Origin: a virus
Length of the DNA: 32,201 nucleotides
IMG/VR virus record: IMGVR_UViG_3300006749_000057
Coordinates: 1 to 32,201 of that record
Strand: one strand, 5' to 3'
In this document: in pieces, positions 9,840 to 25,117 of the stretch
How the letters are laid out: each line of letters opens with the position of its first letter
How positions within the stretch are numbered: position 1 is the first letter of the stretch
The notes under the pieces: model-generated
The model's input: only the letters and a program-made list of their open reading frames with translations
The model's database searches: none
Told to the model about the DNA's origin: nothing
Translations under genes and position numbers: made by a program

Positions 9840-10322
9840 CTACGAAGCGTCTGATGAACTAGAAATACCCATGAACTTCAGAACAACAGTTGTGTCTGCT
9901 CCGGGGTCACCAGAAAGAACAACTTCAACCTCGTCTGCTGTTGCTGTAGCGGCTGTGGTTGTGCCACCAGACATACCCAATACACCATTACACGGGAAGA
10001 AGCCTTTAAATCCAGTTGCATTTACTGCCGCAGTAATGCCGTCAACAAATCCATCTGTATCTGCGTCTGTGCCGATATCAACTAAATTTACGTTGTTAGA
10101 TGCCGCGCCAGTACAGGCGACCATAACAGCCATAGGAATAAAGTTTGATGGAATGCCAATAGCTGATTCTTTTCCTGTAGTAGCACCGTTAGCAACTGTA
10201 ACAGTTGCGGTGTAAACAGAAAGTGTCATCTCACTGGTAAGGTCACCAGTTGTTGCGCTTTTAATAACATTCTTGAAACCGTTTTCTGAACGGACGGGAC
10301 CGTTAAAAGTAGTATTAGCCAT
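9840..10322 (-). CDS. Virion structural protein downstream of the capsid gene
   Basis: A 160-aa Ala/Thr/Gly-rich protein starting MANTTFNGPVRSENGFKNVI, with a VANGATTGKESAIGIPSNFI segment. The N-terminus is a known type of start in phage head-decoration or fibre proteins. It is the first gene after the terminator that follows the capsid gene, with AGGAG just before its start. Capsid decoration or head fibre are the best guesses, from position and composition. Confidence 0.7.
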   Translation of the reverse strand: MANTTFNGPVRSENGFKNVIKSATTGDLTSEMTLSVYTATVTVANGATTGKESAIGIPSNFIPMAVMVACTGAASNNVNLVDIGTDADTDGFVDGITAAVNATGFKGFFPCNGVLGMSGGTTTAATATADEVEVVLSGDPGADTTVVLKFMGISSSSDAS

Positions 10323-10381
10323 AGGAACTCCTTGTCTTGGCTAGTGTCAGTCGCAGTATACGACTGTCAAGGTTCACAATC

Positions 10382-19073: not shown

Positions 19074-19322
19074 GTGTTTAAGGCAATTATCGTAGCTTGT
19101 CATATAGCTGACCCAACCAACTGTATAATTATAACGGACCAGCGTGGGCCATATGACACAGAAGATAAATGCCAAGCTAGAATCGAGGAAATGATACACG
19201 ATTCAATTTCAATATTTACGATGAAGCAATGGCCTATGATTTTTAAGCTAACAAGCTGTGTACACCCAGACGAGGCAGTATTTACAAATGTCAACACTAC
19301 TGACCAATATTCCAAACGCTAA
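19074..19322 (+). CDS. Small protein with GTG start, early region
   Basis: An 82-aa protein beginning with GTG at 19074, with AAGGAG about ten bases upstream, immediately after the previous stop: MFKAIIVACHIADPTNCIII, then RGPYDTEDKCQARIEEMIHD. The order is like small phage proteins in which the N-terminal strands carry Cys pairs (C9, C17, C33). Not recognised. It overlaps the next gene by 35 bp. Confidence 0.62.
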   Translation: MFKAIIVACHIADPTNCIIITDQRGPYDTEDKCQARIEEMIHDSISIFTMKQWPMIFKLTSCVHPDEAVFTNVNTTDQYSKR

Positions 19323-19923
19323 AGTTTATGTTCGTAAAGAATATCTCATGGACCATCAAGAGGGGCATGGTGAATTTGTTGAGGGGCATTGGGTAACGGC
19401 GAAGTCCATTCCCGGCAGAGCCTTTTACTTCGAGACTTATCTGCCCCATTACGGCGCTCTGTACGATAAACTGCCGATTAGTGCCTTTGTATCAGAGCCT
19501 AAAACGCCAGAACCTGACCTGTCCCTGCCCAATCTGCAATTCTGGAACTGCATGGACTACGGTGTCACGTCTATTTACAAGCAATTCATTGGTTCTATGG
19601 ATTTTGAGGTCCGAACGCGAGATGAGGGCAACTTTTACGGCACATATATCTGTACACTAGACAATTATCACGCACAGGCAGACGAAATAGACTACTCAAC
19701 GTCCGAAATCCCGGAAGAACACAAGTCATTTAACCTGATAGAGCTAGAGAACGGGCAATATGCACTGTACCCTAACAACAGAATGCGGGTATATGACAAC
19801 TCCCTGACGCCAGAGAACCCATCAATGCCCGATTTCAAGGTATCTACCGACTATTATCAGGTAGAGGCAGGTAATAAGTACAGACTAGGGGATACAGAAG
19901 AATACTTTTATGAAAAAAAGTAG
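19288..19923 (+). CDS. Conserved phage protein, unknown function
   Basis: A 211-aa protein starting MSTLLTNIPNAKVYVRKEYL at 19288; the frame continues upstream to a GTG at 19258. It has the conserved blocks GEFVEGHWVTAKSIPGRAFY, FETYLPHYGALYDKLPISAF, NLQFWNCMDYGVTSIYKQF, GTYICTLDNYHAQ and IELENGQYALYPNNRMRVYD. I recognise this as a protein found in many marine phages with no known function. No membrane segment or catalytic motif is clear. It ends the first rightward gene cluster. Confidence 0.78.
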   Translation: MSTLLTNIPNAKVYVRKEYLMDHQEGHGEFVEGHWVTAKSIPGRAFYFETYLPHYGALYDKLPISAFVSEPKTPEPDLSLPNLQFWNCMDYGVTSIYKQFIGSMDFEVRTRDEGNFYGTYICTLDNYHAQADEIDYSTSEIPEEHKSFNLIELENGQYALYPNNRMRVYDNSLTPENPSMPDFKVSTDYYQVEAGNKYRLGDTEEYFYEKK

Positions 19924-20828: not shown

Positions 20829-21238
20829 GTCTTTACCCCTATGAAGTGCCGCAACTATGCGCTATCGCTTGGTCGGGCTTTTTGAAATTGTACTACCATA
20901 CAAATATACCAGCCCAGACACGCTACCACCACCCAGCATTCTGTTCCTGTTTCGTTCTGCTTAACCTATTTTTAGTTAAACAGGCAATGTTCTTGCTTTG
21001 TTCATGCCGTTTAAACGCTCTAGGAGCTTCTGTGAGAGGTTTTAGGTATTTTTGCTAGGAAACATACACGGATAGTCGCTGACAGCGCTCTGTGAGCATT
21101 TTAGGTTTTGTCAACACTTTTAAGCATTTTAAGCGTCAATAATCCGACACACCCCAAAAAGGGTTTTCTGCATATATATAGTGTCGATACACCCCGTAAT
21201 TATTTTAAACTTTTTTTGTACTATAGGACTTTTTAGTG
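20829..21238. promoter_or_regulatory. Non-coding control stretch between TerS and the structured RNA
   Basis: No gene is supported in these 410 bp. Operator-like dyads lie at 20887-20904 (ATTGTACTACCATACAAA) and 21215-21232 (TTTGTACTATAGGACTTT, right half weak). A repeated phrase TCTGTGAG followed by TTTTAGGT occurs near 21030 and 21090. ACACCCC recurs at 21149 and 21189. TTGACA also occurs on the minus strand at 21114-21109, pointing to TerS, without a good -10. AT-rich blocks (21125-21235) make this a candidate origin or promoter hub. Confidence 0.5.
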
Positions 21239-21269
21239 TTGACAGTGCTTTTACAAGAGTCCATATAAG
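21239..21269 (+). promoter_or_regulatory. Sigma70-like promoter ahead of the structured RNA
   Basis: The plus strand carries a perfect TTGACA at 21239-21244 and TATAAG at 21264-21269 (19-bp spacing); CATATA at 17-bp spacing is an alternative. Transcription would begin near 21275, exactly where the hairpin series starts. The GTAC dyad at 21215-21232 lies seven bases upstream of the -35, suitable for control by a DNA-binding protein. Confidence 0.65.
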
Positions 21270-21273
21270 GGAA

Positions 21274-21597
21274 GGTTGCTCGCGCAACCGCTGGGTCAGC
21301 CCAGCACCTCACAGCCCCAGTTTGGCAATCGGGTTTCTGGACTTCTTCACCCCCAGATTAGGTTATAAAATCGCCTTGGTCGGCTTCCTAGATTTTGAGT
21401 TCCAAGCTATCTGGTATCGCTCTGAGATATCCGACACGCTCCGCGCTCCACCTCGACACTACGGCTGGCTGGTGCGGCGCGACAGTTCACTGTCGGTGAG
21501 GTAGGGGTTCACGCCACTAGCTGTACGGTTCTCAACACTTTGAGATTAGGCGGTGCTGATGCCGCCTACCTGTCGCTGGGCATTGGTAGCCCAGCCT
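21274..21597 (+). ncRNA. Candidate structured RNA or long 5' leader
   Basis: About 325 nt without a credible gene contain nine local hairpins by eye: GGTTGC/GCAACC (21274-21289), GCTGGG/CCCAGC (21290-21305), TCTGG/CCAGA (21336-21357), AAAATC..GCC/GGC..GATTTT (21367-21396), GGTATC/GATATC (21413-21431), CGACAG/CTGTCG (21480-21495), CTCAA/TTGAG (21531-21544), TAGGCGG/CCGCCTA (21547-21568) and GCTGGGC/GCCCAGC (21575-21595). Also ACCTCAC (21306-21312) can pair with GTGAGGT (21496-21502). It follows a promoter and ends just before AGGAG of the gene at 21626. I cannot assign it to tmRNA, RNase P, group I intron or another named class. Confidence 0.6.
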
Positions 21598-21625
21598 GAC
21601 GAGTAACCACGAAACAGGAGCTAAC

Positions 21626-21817
21626 ATGACACAGCCACAACCTGCTTATCTTTATTCACTCGCTGGTGTTTCATTTTATGAACACCCCACAATGGGCGAT
21701 GAACACCCAGTGCTGGTGAAACACAACGGCAAGTTTTACAACACAGGGTATTATGACCCTGACCACGGTGAAGCACTTGAGATTAAGGCGAAACTTAAAG
21801 CAAAGGGGAATAAATAA
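21626..21817 (+). CDS. Small protein after the structured RNA
   Basis: A 63-aa protein starting MTQPQPAYLYSLAGVSFYEH with AGGAG seven bases upstream. It has a DEHPVLVKHNGKFYNTGYYD segment and a Lys-rich end (LKAKLKAKGNK-like). Short, soluble, not recognised. Its long structured leader suggests its translation, or the RNA itself, is regulated. It shares TAATG with the next gene. Confidence 0.72.
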   Translation: MTQPQPAYLYSLAGVSFYEHPTMGDEHPVLVKHNGKFYNTGYYDPDHGEALEIKAKLKAKGNK

Positions 21818-22071
21818 TGGTTGAATATTTCCACATTTATGTAAACGGCGGCCTCACATATGTGGGGCTGGTTTTGTCTCAGGCTGTACAGGTCATGGAC
21901 AAGTTAAAGGCTGATGGCAACAAGCCAGTGATGAAATCTTATATGCTTGACCCTGCCGTACTCGAGGCAATGTCGCAGTCATATGATGATGAACGCTATG
22001 GAGCAAAAAATGAAATCGTCAAACAGTTTGCTGAAAAGCAAGGCTTGGACGTTCATGAAATCAAAATGTAA
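21817..22071 (+). CDS. Small protein of unknown function
   Basis: An 84-aa protein starting MVEYFHIYVNGGLTYVGLVL, then SQAVQVMDKLKADGNKPVMK and a charged C-terminal helix (IVKQFAEKQGLDVHEIK). It overlaps the previous stop by 1 bp, so the two are co-translated. Not recognised; no membrane segment. Confidence 0.7.
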   Translation: MVEYFHIYVNGGLTYVGLVLSQAVQVMDKLKADGNKPVMKSYMLDPAVLEAMSQSYDDERYGAKNEIVKQFAEKQGLDVHEIKM

Positions 22072-22086
22072 AAGCTACCTGATGAT

Positions 22087-22142
22087 GGGCGCATAGGACA
22101 CGCCCGAAACACCGCGCCCTGCGGTGTCGTAGCGTCCGCTAC
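22087..22142 (+). promoter_or_regulatory. Three-hairpin leader before the 223-aa gene
   Basis: Three successive perfect stems lie in the 97-bp gap: GGGCG/CGCCC (22087-22105), ACACCGC/GCGGTGT (22109-22127) and GTAGC/GCTAC (22129-22142), ending 17 bp before GGAG of the next gene. There is no U-run, so it is not a plain terminator. It may be an mRNA processing or regulatory structure. Confidence 0.5.
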
Positions 22143-22168
22143 ATATCAACAATCTTTTGGAGTACCAA

Positions 22169-22840
22169 ATGCAAAAATCTACTTTCGTAATCGCAGACAG
22201 CAACCTTAACACTATCGCTTCTAATGAAAAGCGCATTGGCCTTTTGAAGGGTGATGCTAAAGAGGCAAACGGTGAGGCTCAAACACTCAAGCTAAACAGC
22301 TACTGCCAGCTAATATCTGGCATTGCTGGAGCGCCTATGACTTCCAAGTCCAACCTGCCAACCGCAGTTTCATCCAGCCTTAAGGCTGACCTGATGGACA
22401 TCGGTGGCCTGACTGAGGGCATGGCAAACAAAATGGTTAAGAACGCAGTCGGCGCTCGTAACGTGTTCAAGATTGGCGGTGATAACATCACCCCTGAGAT
22501 GGTTACCCAAGTCTTTGAAGAGCAGGGTATCTCGTCTGAGGCCAAGCTAATCAAAGCAGTGTCAGGTGATGATGCTAAGTCTAAGGTTCAGCTTGCAGTG
22601 GACAAGATTGCTGGCAAGCGCTCTACCAAAAAGAACAACAAGGGCGAGCGTGTTGACGGTGACAAATGGCTGGGCGGTTTCACCTATGATGAAATCGAAG
22701 AGTTCCAGTCAGTGCTGGCCGATGCCCTGCGTGTTCGCGGTGAGATGGAAGCCGCCGCACAAGAGGCGGCAGACAAGGCTCAGGCTGAGAATGATGCGGT
22801 CAACGAGATGACTGCCCAACTTGAAGGTCAGGCCGCTTAG
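22169..22840 (+). CDS. Unknown helical protein of the MoxR/VWA module
   Basis: A 223-aa protein starting MQKSTFVIADSNLNTIASNE at 22169 (GGAG seven bases upstream). The middle has LPTAVSSSLKADLMDIGGLT and FKIGGDNITPEMVTQVFEEQ; the last 60 residues are a charged coiled coil (RVRGEMEAAAQEAADKAQAE). I do not recognise the family. Its stop is inside a terminator-type hairpin and 46 bp before the MoxR-like ATPase, so it may be the partner or substrate of that ATPase. Function is inferred from position only. Confidence 0.75.
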   Translation: MQKSTFVIADSNLNTIASNEKRIGLLKGDAKEANGEAQTLKLNSYCQLISGIAGAPMTSKSNLPTAVSSSLKADLMDIGGLTEGMANKMVKNAVGARNVFKIGGDNITPEMVTQVFEEQGISSEAKLIKAVSGDDAKSKVQLAVDKIAGKRSTKKNNKGERVDGDKWLGGFTYDEIEEFQSVLADALRVRGEMEAAAQEAADKAQAENDAVNEMTAQLEGQAA

Positions 22841-22862
22841 TGCGGCCTTCCCCCCCTTTTTT
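22831..22862 (+). terminator. Hairpin with C/T run over the stop of the 223-aa gene
   Basis: GGCCGC/GCGGCC with a 5-base loop (22831-22847) overlaps the stop codon, followed by TTCCCCCCCTTTTTT. It resembles a Rho-independent terminator, though the C run is unusual. It probably sets the ratio of the 223-aa protein to the ATPase. Confidence 0.6.
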
Positions 22863-22886
22863 CAACAACGCATCGGGAGTTTTATT

Positions 22887-23900
22887 ATGCGTATTTCACA
22901 AGCAAAAGCTATTGTCGAGGCTTCAATCGACAGCCAAATCCAGCACGTCAATGGACGTGATGCTCAACGCCCCATCGCCTACCTTGTCGGTGGCGCTGGT
23001 CTAGGTAAAACATCAGTCGTTCAGACTATCGCTAATGAACGCGAGGTTGGCCTCAATATCCTATCGCTGGCTCAGTATGATGCTGGCGAGTTGGCTGGCT
23101 GGCTTGTCGCTGACGGTGACAACATGAAGCGACTACGGCCTGACTGGATGCCAGCCGATGGCGAGGGCATACTGTTTTTGGACGAGTTGCCGCAAGCACC
23201 TGTCTCTAATCAGAACATTGCCGCACAGTTGGTCAATGAACGCCGTATCGGTGAGCATCGCTTGCCTGACGGCTGGTCAATCGTATGTGCTGGCAACCGT
23301 ACCAGTGACAGGGCTGGCACTAACAATATGCCAAGCCACCTCAAGGATAGGCTGTTGTTTGTCGAGGTCGATGCTGACCTAGAGGATACTGTAGCCTACA
23401 TGAACAGCGTTGACGTATCACCGCTAGTCACTGGCTTCCTGCGGTTCCGCCCTGAGTTGCTTCACAAGTTTGACCGTGATGCTAATTCATGCCCATCACC
23501 TCGCTCATGGGAGCGTGTTGATACCATGATGAAGTGGGGTCTAGATGCAGTGAATGAGCAAGAGGCTGTCGCTGGTCAGGTTGGACGTGGCGCTTGCGCT
23601 GAGTTCATGGGTTACAAGCAGATACACGATACCTGCCCTGACATTGACGCAGTGATTGCTGACCCTGACAACGCAGACATCAGTGAAGACCCTGCTGTAT
23701 GCTATGCGGTGTCTGCCGCTCTGGCTCACAAGGCTAACGACAAGAACATTGGCAACGTCATCAAATACCTGACACGCCTACCGCACAAAGAGTTTGCGGT
23801 GTTCGCCGTCAAAGACGCATACAGCCGCAACCCTGCCATCAAGCAGACACAGGCGTTTCGCCAGTTCCTGTTGACACATGGCAAAGAGTTGATGCTCTAA
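22887..23900 (+). CDS. MoxR-type AAA+ ATPase
   Basis: A 337-aa ATPase, start at 22887 with GGGAG upstream; the frame extends further upstream but overlaps the previous gene. Walker A GGAGLGKT at 35-42, Walker B ILFLDE at 95-100, sensor-1 type CAGNR at 134-138, and DRLLFVEV near 154 with the candidate arginine finger. Pattern and pairing with a VWA protein fit the MoxR group, which remodels protein complexes. It is followed by a hairpin and a GTAC site, then the VWA/metallopeptidase gene. Its substrate is unknown. Confidence 0.88.
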   Translation: MRISQAKAIVEASIDSQIQHVNGRDAQRPIAYLVGGAGLGKTSVVQTIANEREVGLNILSLAQYDAGELAGWLVADGDNMKRLRPDWMPADGEGILFLDELPQAPVSNQNIAAQLVNERRIGEHRLPDGWSIVCAGNRTSDRAGTNNMPSHLKDRLLFVEVDADLEDTVAYMNSVDVSPLVTGFLRFRPELLHKFDRDANSCPSPRSWERVDTMMKWGLDAVNEQEAVAGQVGRGACAEFMGYKQIHDTCPDIDAVIADPDNADISEDPAVCYAVSAALAHKANDKNIGNVIKYLTRLPHKEFAVFAVKDAYSRNPAIKQTQAFRQFLLTHGKELML

Positions 23901-23908
23901 CATTCTAT

Positions 23909-23928
23909 GGGGCGGTTCACGCCGCCCC
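23909..23928 (+). terminator. GC hairpin between the ATPase and VWA genes
   Basis: A perfect 7-bp GGGGCGG/CCGCCCC stem with a 6-base loop. It lacks a U run afterwards (ATTTATACC), so it may pause or process the transcript rather than end it. It is nearly identical to the hairpin at 26723, and both are followed by the TTTATACC..GTACAAA site. Confidence 0.55.
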
Positions 23929-23929
23929 A

Positions 23930-23947
23930 TTTATACCATCGTACAAA
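23930..23947. promoter_or_regulatory. GTAC dyad before the VWA gene
   Basis: TTTATACCATCGTACAAA is the common dyad with one change in the left half, right after a GC hairpin and 18 bp before the start codon of the VWA gene. Its partner at 26766 differs only in two spacer bases. The ribosome site is CGGGAG just downstream, so binding would affect expression of the VWA gene. Confidence 0.6.
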
Positions 23948-23965
23948 TTTTTCGGGAGTTCTGAC

Positions 23966-25117
23966 ATGGACGCAGAAACAAAAGTTGCTCGCGCAAAGAC
24001 TAGGCTAGTGCTAGACCACCCATTCTGGGGCAGTCTAGTGCTTGGCACTGCCTTTCATAAGGATGACATACCTACCATGTGTACAAACGGTCAGTGGATA
24101 AAATGGTCTGCTGATTTTGTTGATAAGTGTTCTGACAAGAATGTCATATTCACTGTGGCGCATGAGATATCACACATATTCCTCAAGCATTGTGACCCCA
24201 TCAAAGAAATTGATGGCAAGCCTGTGAATGCTGAGGTTCAAAACATGGCTATGGATTATGTAATCAATCCTATACTCATTGACGGTAATGTTGGTGAGAT
24301 GCCAGAGGGCGGCCTGTATGACCCCAAATATCATGGCTGGTCATGGCTCAAGGTTTACCGCGAGTTGATGAAGATGGATGAGAGTGACCGCCCCCAGCCA
24401 CAGCCATGGGGTGGTAATGTCGGCTCACCAGAGGATGACAATGGCAATGAAATGCAAGGCTCAGAACTTGAACAGTTCAACGCCACAATAGACCAGCGTG
24501 TGTTTCTGGCCGCTACTGGCGCTCAGTCTGCTGGTAAGTTGCCATCCGCTATCGCTGAGTTAGTCGAGCGTATGCGGCGCTCCAAAGTTGACTGGCGTGA
24601 TGTGTTCAATCGCTTCATTGGCGGTGACCAGCCTGATGACTACACGTTCCGCAAGCCCAACAAAAAGGTCTGGTATACGCAGGGCATATACACGCCCAGC
24701 ATTGACAAGATTGGTGTGGGTGATGTCGTGGTTGCTGTTGATACATCGGGGTCTGTCAGCACCGCTGAGTTACAGCAGTTTCTTGGCGAGTTGAACAATA
24801 TCACCGATGACCACAAGCCACGGTCTGTCACTGTTATCACTTGTGACGCTGATATCAAGTCTGTTGTTCGCTATGAACAGGGCGATATCATTGACACCAT
24901 TGAGTGCAATGGCAGGGGCGGCACTAGGGTAGAGCCTGTATTCAGATACATTCGCGAGAATGATTTATCAGTAGACAACATGGTTTACCTGACAGACATG
25001 GGCATCTGGGATTTTCCAGACAACACGCCTGACTATCCTGTGCTGTGGGTGTCAACAGACCCACAGTGCAATGACGCACCATTCGGTGAGACAACACGCA
25101 TACAGGTGGCGGCATAG
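23966..25117 (+). CDS. DUF2201-type metallopeptidase/VWA protein
   Basis: A 383-aa protein with two parts. The first resembles the putative metallopeptidase domain of DUF2201 proteins: AHEISH (HEISH at 66-70) with IFLKHCDPIK after it and an NMAMDYVINPIL block holding the usual later Asp. The second is a VWA-like domain with a MIDAS motif DTSGSVS (259-265) preceded by VVVAVDTSG, plus a later GGTR and TDMG segment. Such proteins pair with MoxR ATPases, here the gene just upstream. The HExxH is intact, so protease activity is possible but untested. Confidence 0.88.
   Translation: MDAETKVARAKTRLVLDHPFWGSLVLGTAFHKDDIPTMCTNGQWIKWSADFVDKCSDKNVIFTVAHEISHIFLKHCDPIKEIDGKPVNAEVQNMAMDYVINPILIDGNVGEMPEGGLYDPKYHGWSWLKVYRELMKMDESDRPQPQPWGGNVGSPEDDNGNEMQGSELEQFNATIDQRVFLAATGAQSAGKLPSAIAELVERMRRSKVDWRDVFNRFIGGDQPDDYTFRKPNKKVWYTQGIYTPSIDKIGVGDVVVAVDTSGSVSTAELQQFLGELNNITDDHKPRSVTVITCDADIKSVVRYEQGDIIDTIECNGRGGTRVEPVFRYIRENDLSVDNMVYLTDMGIWDFPDNTPDYPVLWVSTDPQCNDAPFGETTRIQVAA

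Follow-up and report, generated by a model that had tools for sequence, protein, structure and literature searches.

The window analysed here, a whole stretch of 32,201 nucleotides of viral DNA (IMG/VR record IMGVR_UViG_3300006749_000057), contains a hairpin-rich segment at 21274-21597, and this locus raises the question of what kind of RNA is made there and how it relates to the genes that follow. A preliminary description read the segment as a structured leader RNA, and in this it was correct. Our answer, which we hold to be reasonably probable, is that the segment is the leader of an early operon and ends in a type III hammerhead, and that ribozymes cut the transcript into a leader RNA and end-protected mRNAs.

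Promoter and leader RNA

The likely early promoter was read from the sequence on the plus strand at 21239-21267, where TTGACA (21239-21244) is followed after 17 nt by CATATA (21262-21267). An alternative -10 element, TATAAG, lies at a spacing of 19 nt from TTGACA. The promoter had been placed just upstream of the segment; its TTGACA stands, whereas its -10 element is weak and was not listed by a consensus scan. The pattern TTKACA-17-YATWTA is retained at this position in relatives. Operator-like inverted repeats (TTGTACNNTNGNACAA) at 20885-20904 and 21215-21234 flank the divergent intergenic region, also in relatives. With its start taken from the promoter, the leader RNA predicted after ribozyme cleavage would span 21274-21574 on the plus strand and would be non-coding. 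The ribosome site reported just 3' of the segment is present (AGGAG, 21616-21620), and the view that the segment holds no credible gene agrees with the 1-nt indels seen in the alignment with the closest relatives, L011 and L012. A 107-codon ORF spanning the leader (21181-21504) was rejected, as 1-nt indels in relatives break its frame.

The stems described earlier lie where they had been placed. The 5' end of the leader is formed by the hairpin GGTTGC..GCAACC (21274-21289), followed by GCTGGGTCAGCCCAGC (21290-21305, GCTGGG-TCAG-CCCAGC) and, further on, by GACAGTTCACTGTC (21481-21494), TTCTCAACACTTTGAGA (21529-21545), GGCGGTGCTGATGCCGCC (21549-21566), and GCTGGGC..GCCCAGC (21575-21595). The helix at 21529-21545 is kept with other sequence (CCAAC/GGTTGG) in L006 and L007, and the hairpin at 21549-21566 lies at the leader's 3' end, with 8 nt between it and the predicted cut. 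Such a 3'-terminal hairpin is not general across leader families, being strong in families A and D only. The identical stem halves at 21290 and 21589 had been thought able to swap partners, an arrangement that is not conserved: the identity with the ribozyme stem is lost in relatives of the same leader family, whose 5' hairpins (GGGGGTCAGCCCC, GGGGATCACCCC) differ and are unrelated to that stem.

The folding of the 324 nt is not exceptional, contrary to the earlier expectation, with a z of -1.56 against dinucleotide shuffles and 8 of 100 shuffles equally stable. A 306-nt frame of the leader reached only -0.93 sd relative to shuffles, and unusual folding was limited to the last 48 nt upstream of the predicted cut between 21574 and 21575 (z -3.55). 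Alignments of the leaders were folded and compared with column shuffles, with family C treated as separate alignments, and gave z values of -5.6 (C1), -3.9 (C2), -4.3 (A-alpha), -2.45 (B), and -1.1 (A-beta); the window's leader with its nearest relative, L043, gave -1.8. Between the window and L011, one helix changed on both sides from TAGG/CCTA to TAGAG/CTCTA, and a second changed from GCC/GGC to GTGA/TCAC around a retained TTGG. Covariance in relatives, proposed earlier as a check, is present in the ribozymes; conserved leader structure is well supported for the relatives' families, but is weak and only suggestive for the window's own leader.

The leader at 21274-21568 matched no Rfam family on the plus strand at E up to 10 (cmscan), and the relatives' leaders, compared with Rfam at the gathering threshold and at E 10, gave sub-threshold hammerheads and chance-like matches only. 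The claim that the RNA belongs to no named class thus holds for the 5' 295 nt, but not for the 3' part, which is a type III hammerhead ribozyme. Two suggestions of the preliminary description, that of a replication structure and that of a metabolite-sensing leader, found no support, and the leader contains no Rfam riboswitch at E 10. Searches of the region detected no tRNA or tmRNA, and comparison of its DNA with named phages and plasmids returned no similar sequence apart from one weak match inside a tape-measure gene. In L070, L071, and L072, the leader upstream of 3432 (minus strand) includes a T-arm-like stretch, GGTATGTCGGTTCGAACCCCGGCTCACCCACC, in which ARAGORN found no tRNA.

Between the same promoter region and ribozyme, 21274-21568 is swapped as a block for unrelated sequences (families B, C, and D). 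Exchange of this kind, as in an arms race, would suit a leader RNA that is itself the main product, a trans-acting ncRNA directed at, for example, a host factor or a defence system, with the ribozyme providing a clean 3' end. Several unrelated families at the same place, some with strongly conserved structure (z -5.6, -3.9, and -4.3), and the hairpin at each end of the window's leader point the same way. However, single leaders fold with unremarkable energy (mean z -0.65), the window's own family gives a weak signal (z -1.8), and there is no leader for the downstream type I ribozymes to release, so that we consider a trans-acting leader unlikely, if worth keeping in mind.

The type III hammerhead at the end of the leader

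A permissive cmscan search matched 21567-21620 to the type III hammerhead with 27.9 bits (E 0.002), which lies below the RF00008 gathering threshold of 48.5 bits, a curated score and not a structural feature. The element itself spans 21569-21618 on the plus strand; the end at 21597 given in the preliminary description splits it, as the ribozyme extends to 21618. Its layout reads CCTGT-C, then GCTGGGC ATTGGTA GCCCAGC, CTGACGA, GT AACC AC, GAA, and ACAGG. Stem III is formed by 21569-21573 and 21614-21618, stem I by 21575-21581 and 21589-21595, and stem II, of 2 bp, lies within 21603-21610, while the core consists of CTGACGA (21596-21602) and GAA (21611-21613). The elements CUGANGA, GAA, A15.1-U16.1, and H17 are all in the right order, stem III is open, and the predicted cut falls after C21574. 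The pairing GCTGGG...CCCAGC noted earlier at 21575-21595 is stem I of this hammerhead. Moreover, TGGT in loop I is complementary to ACCA in loop II.

A hammerhead descriptor applied to the whole window returned one type III and one type I element, and the 300 dinucleotide-preserving shuffles of the 32 kb, searched on both strands, gave one type III and no type I match. The leader ribozyme was found in 29 distinct versions, including the window's, at the same place in related contigs. Among 14 sequences with comparable cores, 99.6% were paired and 20 double changes were counted; stem I and the loop contact covary in this set, where stem III is invariant. Stem III of the type III element in L106 is CCCGT/ACGGG. 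The short stem II of the window contributed one pair to the covariation count. The hammerhead architecture, the loop-loop contact, the covariation, and the fixed position are thus all present at the level of sequence, and the core, the covariation, and the position in relatives confirm 21569-21618 as a type III hammerhead ribozyme with predicted cleavage.

The cores of some relatives carry insertions, namely A6a in L011, L012, and L034 and one extra nucleotide near C3 in many others. Leader ribozymes of the latter kind include L091 3352-3400 (minus), L061 3046-3094 (minus), L108 3059-3107 (minus), and L010 5172-5222 (plus), with example cores TTATGATGA, CATGAAGA, and TTTGAAAA, and in them positions 3 and 8 change jointly (C-G, U-G, U-A). 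Core insertions of the relatives' kind lowered activity when tested (PMC3088659). These core variants, together with the score under the Rfam cut-off, might suggest decayed or incidental hammerhead-like hairpins that function at the DNA level only or not at all. The covariation, the positional conservation, the one and zero chance matches in 300 shuffles, and the intact cores of the window itself make such decay very improbable.

The type III hammerhead also reaches into the signal for translation. The Shine-Dalgarno sequence AGGAG (21616-21620) of the ORF at 21626-21817 is part-paired in stem III, and in each of the 34 distinct contexts part of the following gene's Shine-Dalgarno is contributed by the 3' strand of stem III, and the start codon comes 7-12 nt later. 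When the type III region is folded uncut, the ribozyme is absent from the minimum-energy structure. On the minus strand, 20945-20955 (ACGAAACAGGA) is identical in letters to the 3' part of the leader ribozyme; this copy precedes a short ORF, itself located before the small terminase gene, and occurs in close relatives only. It was rejected as a further ribozyme, having no ribozyme core.

The type I hammerhead and the copy of its stem I strand

The descriptor, covariation, and relatives identify a type I hammerhead at 22074-22133 on the plus strand, with a predicted cut between 22128 and 22129. The core and three helices are present, stem I is open, and an extra U at 22086 lies between the core and stem II; the Rfam hammerhead models did not list 22074-22133 at E up to 10. 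A GTCC tail (22134-22137) forms a pseudoknot with GGAC of loop II (22096-22099). The type I ribozyme was found in about 40 distinct versions; in the type I alignment, 95.9% of cells are paired and 18 of 22 pairs are altered on both sides, including double changes in the pseudoknot between loop II and the tail (AGGAC/GTCCT and GAGAC/GTCTC). On most measures, this covariation was far above shuffled and slid controls. As part of the set was gathered with a pattern that fixes the stem I strand GTCGTAGCGTC, the diversity of stem I is best judged from L006, L009, L060, and L086, which were found through genes, and from the neighbours on the L027 contig.

Just behind the predicted cut, GTAGC-GTCC-GCTAC (22129-22142) can form an alternative hairpin, with which the downstream cleavage product would begin at its 5' end. 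All 40 type I elements carry a second complementary copy 4-7 nt after the 3' strand of stem I, which was seen in 6% of shuffles, and the pairs of the downstream hairpin covary, with five of five changed on both sides and six different stem I strands represented. With this copy in 40 of 40 elements, a hairpin can form at the start of the cut mRNA. Folded uncut, however, the type I region favours the downstream hairpin over stem I at minimum energy, and the hairpin might therefore inhibit the ribozyme instead of capping the product.

Type I elements occupy the gap from a stop codon to the next Shine-Dalgarno sequence: they start within about 10 nt of the upstream stop codon in 35 of 43 cases and are followed by a Shine-Dalgarno and a start codon 30-42 nt downstream in 41 of 43. 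The window's type I begins 2 nt after the stop codon (22069-22085), similar to the other elements among those 35, and at this distance a terminating ribosome would cover stem I and the core. It is possible that translation and type I cleavage are coupled through this ribosome. Four type I hammerheads lie within 3 kb of L027 (1133-3887, minus strand), ahead of successive genes. Their stem I sequences all differ, and each is accompanied by a matching downstream copy; a fifth lies elsewhere on the contig (L025).

Two ribozymes flanking a 554-nt segment recall a mobile or circular RNA of the retrozyme kind. This is the least probable of the readings weighed here, as the two are of different types and their stem I strands do not match, so that neither could religate the segment. 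In addition, the four type I ribozymes of L027 have four different stem I sequences, and the positions of the ribozymes follow genes.

Exchange of parts, predicted cleavage, and related systems

The two ribozymes enclose two small early genes on the plus strand, of 63 aa (21626-21817, phrog_11770) and 84 aa (21817-22071), and the content of this small-gene cassette varies among the phages. The type I ribozyme is followed by a conserved early gene (the gene at 22157; 22169-22840, plus strand) with its ATG at 22169 and its Shine-Dalgarno at 22159-22162; no named phage was found to encode it. It is followed directly at 22821-25117 (plus) by an ATPase (phrog_1297) and a VWA/metallopeptidase-like protein (DUF2201; phrog_1314). 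Elsewhere in the window, a Mu-gpT-DE RNA (RF03012, 56.5 bits) lies next to the major head protein gene at 10320-10372 (minus), and a ferredoxin moron family protein (phrog_3704, E 2.9e-105) is encoded at 19258-19923 (plus).

Relatives were retrieved via the gene at 22157, the small terminase, and DNA patterns, and the same layout of leader and ribozymes recurs in dozens of uncultured relatives. Covariance models built from the ribozyme alignments, with the window a member of both training sets, find elements at the expected places in 72 loci, and type III variants outside the training set score 27 to 55 bits. One or two type I elements are present in six of nine long related records (41-66 kb). 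Leader family A has a type III hammerhead at its end in the window and a type I in L006, L007, and L040; likewise, family D has a type III end in L095 and a type I end in L028. Most relatives have a type I ahead of the gene at 22157; in L070, L081, L082, L085, L087, L092, L106, L131, and L148, a type III of another subclass stands there. As leader and conserved gene each occur with either ribozyme type, the place is kept and the ribozyme changes. Of two near-identical contigs, L008 (5739-5789) and L005 (905-1353), the former is without the gene cassette and the type I element, and its type III ribozyme directly adjoins the conserved gene. The ribozymes may thus mark recombination borders.

This exchange bears on whether the leader acts in cis as a riboswitch, an attenuator, or a put-like antiterminator that controls the ribozyme. 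In all 34 contexts part of the ribosome site falls in stem III, the ribozyme lies immediately 3' of the leader, and the stem I strand of type I can pair with either of two partners, all of which such a regulator could exploit. However, the same ribozyme is found behind unrelated leader families, and a single family can be followed by different ribozymes, which fits a dedicated sensor poorly; no Rfam riboswitch was found at E 10, and the swap of 21290-21305 with stem I is not conserved. We consider cis regulation by the leader improbable.

A tyrosine integrase is absent from eight of the nine related records, which may be incomplete. This favours a lytic phage and speaks against an immunity RNA, and the source is probably a lytic, uncultured phage. 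P4 CI RNA and HK022 put are structured phage leader RNAs found just behind an early promoter, and are not known to contain a ribozyme. The window likewise places a structured RNA behind an early phage promoter, but adds the ribozyme, and an immunity role is unlikely in view of the missing integrases. The glmS ribozyme also cleaves itself within the 5' leader of an mRNA of bacterial type, which the window's leader ribozyme is predicted to do; glmS, however, belongs to a different class, needs a metabolite, and lowers expression upon cleavage.

In the reading that we prefer, of an early leader ended by its own hammerhead, the transcript is inferred to cleave itself, to release the leader, to uncover the ribosome site, and to be protected by hairpins. 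The type III ribozyme would cut between 21574 and 21575 during transcription, releasing a leader RNA of ~300 nt with a hairpin near each end and detaching CCTGT from the AGGAG ribosome site with which it pairs; the mRNA that remains would begin with the stem I hairpin. The type I ribozyme would cut between 22128 and 22129, after which one stem I strand may re-pair with its downstream copy and cap the new mRNA end, and the stem III hairpin would close the 3' end of the upstream piece. With cutting, release, and hairpin ends combined, the ribozymes would serve as natural insulators that split the early transcript around an exchangeable small-gene cassette. The more specific proposal, that these phages carry exchangeable ncRNA leaders cut out by a built-in ribozyme, together with a type I cut-and-cap device that re-uses one strand, is tentative.

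The insulator RiboJ is an engineered sTRSV hammerhead with a 23-nt hairpin; its product retains the 5' hairpin, and mRNA and protein levels are higher (PMC6206723, PMC7536230). As in RiboJ, a hammerhead would remove the leader here and the product would begin with a hairpin, with the ribosome site next; a predicted product of this build follows for type III by construction and was found for 40 of 40 type I elements. Unlike RiboJ, the window's ribozymes are natural, the type I hairpin is built with a strand of the ribozyme, and the ribosome site is paired within the leader ribozyme.

As described by Perreault et al. 2011 (PMC3088659), hammerheads cluster around prophage genes and cleave in vitro and in E. 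coli, and their suggested role is to cut long phage transcripts into smaller mRNAs. Clustered prophage hammerheads were thus already known, and the present arrangement is a variant of them: types I and III occur between phage genes in both, with a short stem II and loop-tail or loop-loop pseudoknots. The window differs in that its type III ends a structured leader and includes a Shine-Dalgarno in stem III, its type I carries one additional U ahead of stem II and repeats a stem I strand further downstream, and the place of the ribozyme is constant as its type changes. None of these features is described in the parts of PMC3088659 consulted. Standard covariance models miss a phage hammerhead group.

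The purpose of hammerheads in bacterial viruses was left open by Perreault et al. (2011). The strict position of the ribozymes turns this into a testable statement: they would end the leader, hold part of the ribosome site while uncut, span the distance between a stop codon and the ribosome site that follows, and give the new 5' end a hairpin. If true, they would be the natural counterpart of the insulator that synthetic biology has built by hand and a source of new parts.
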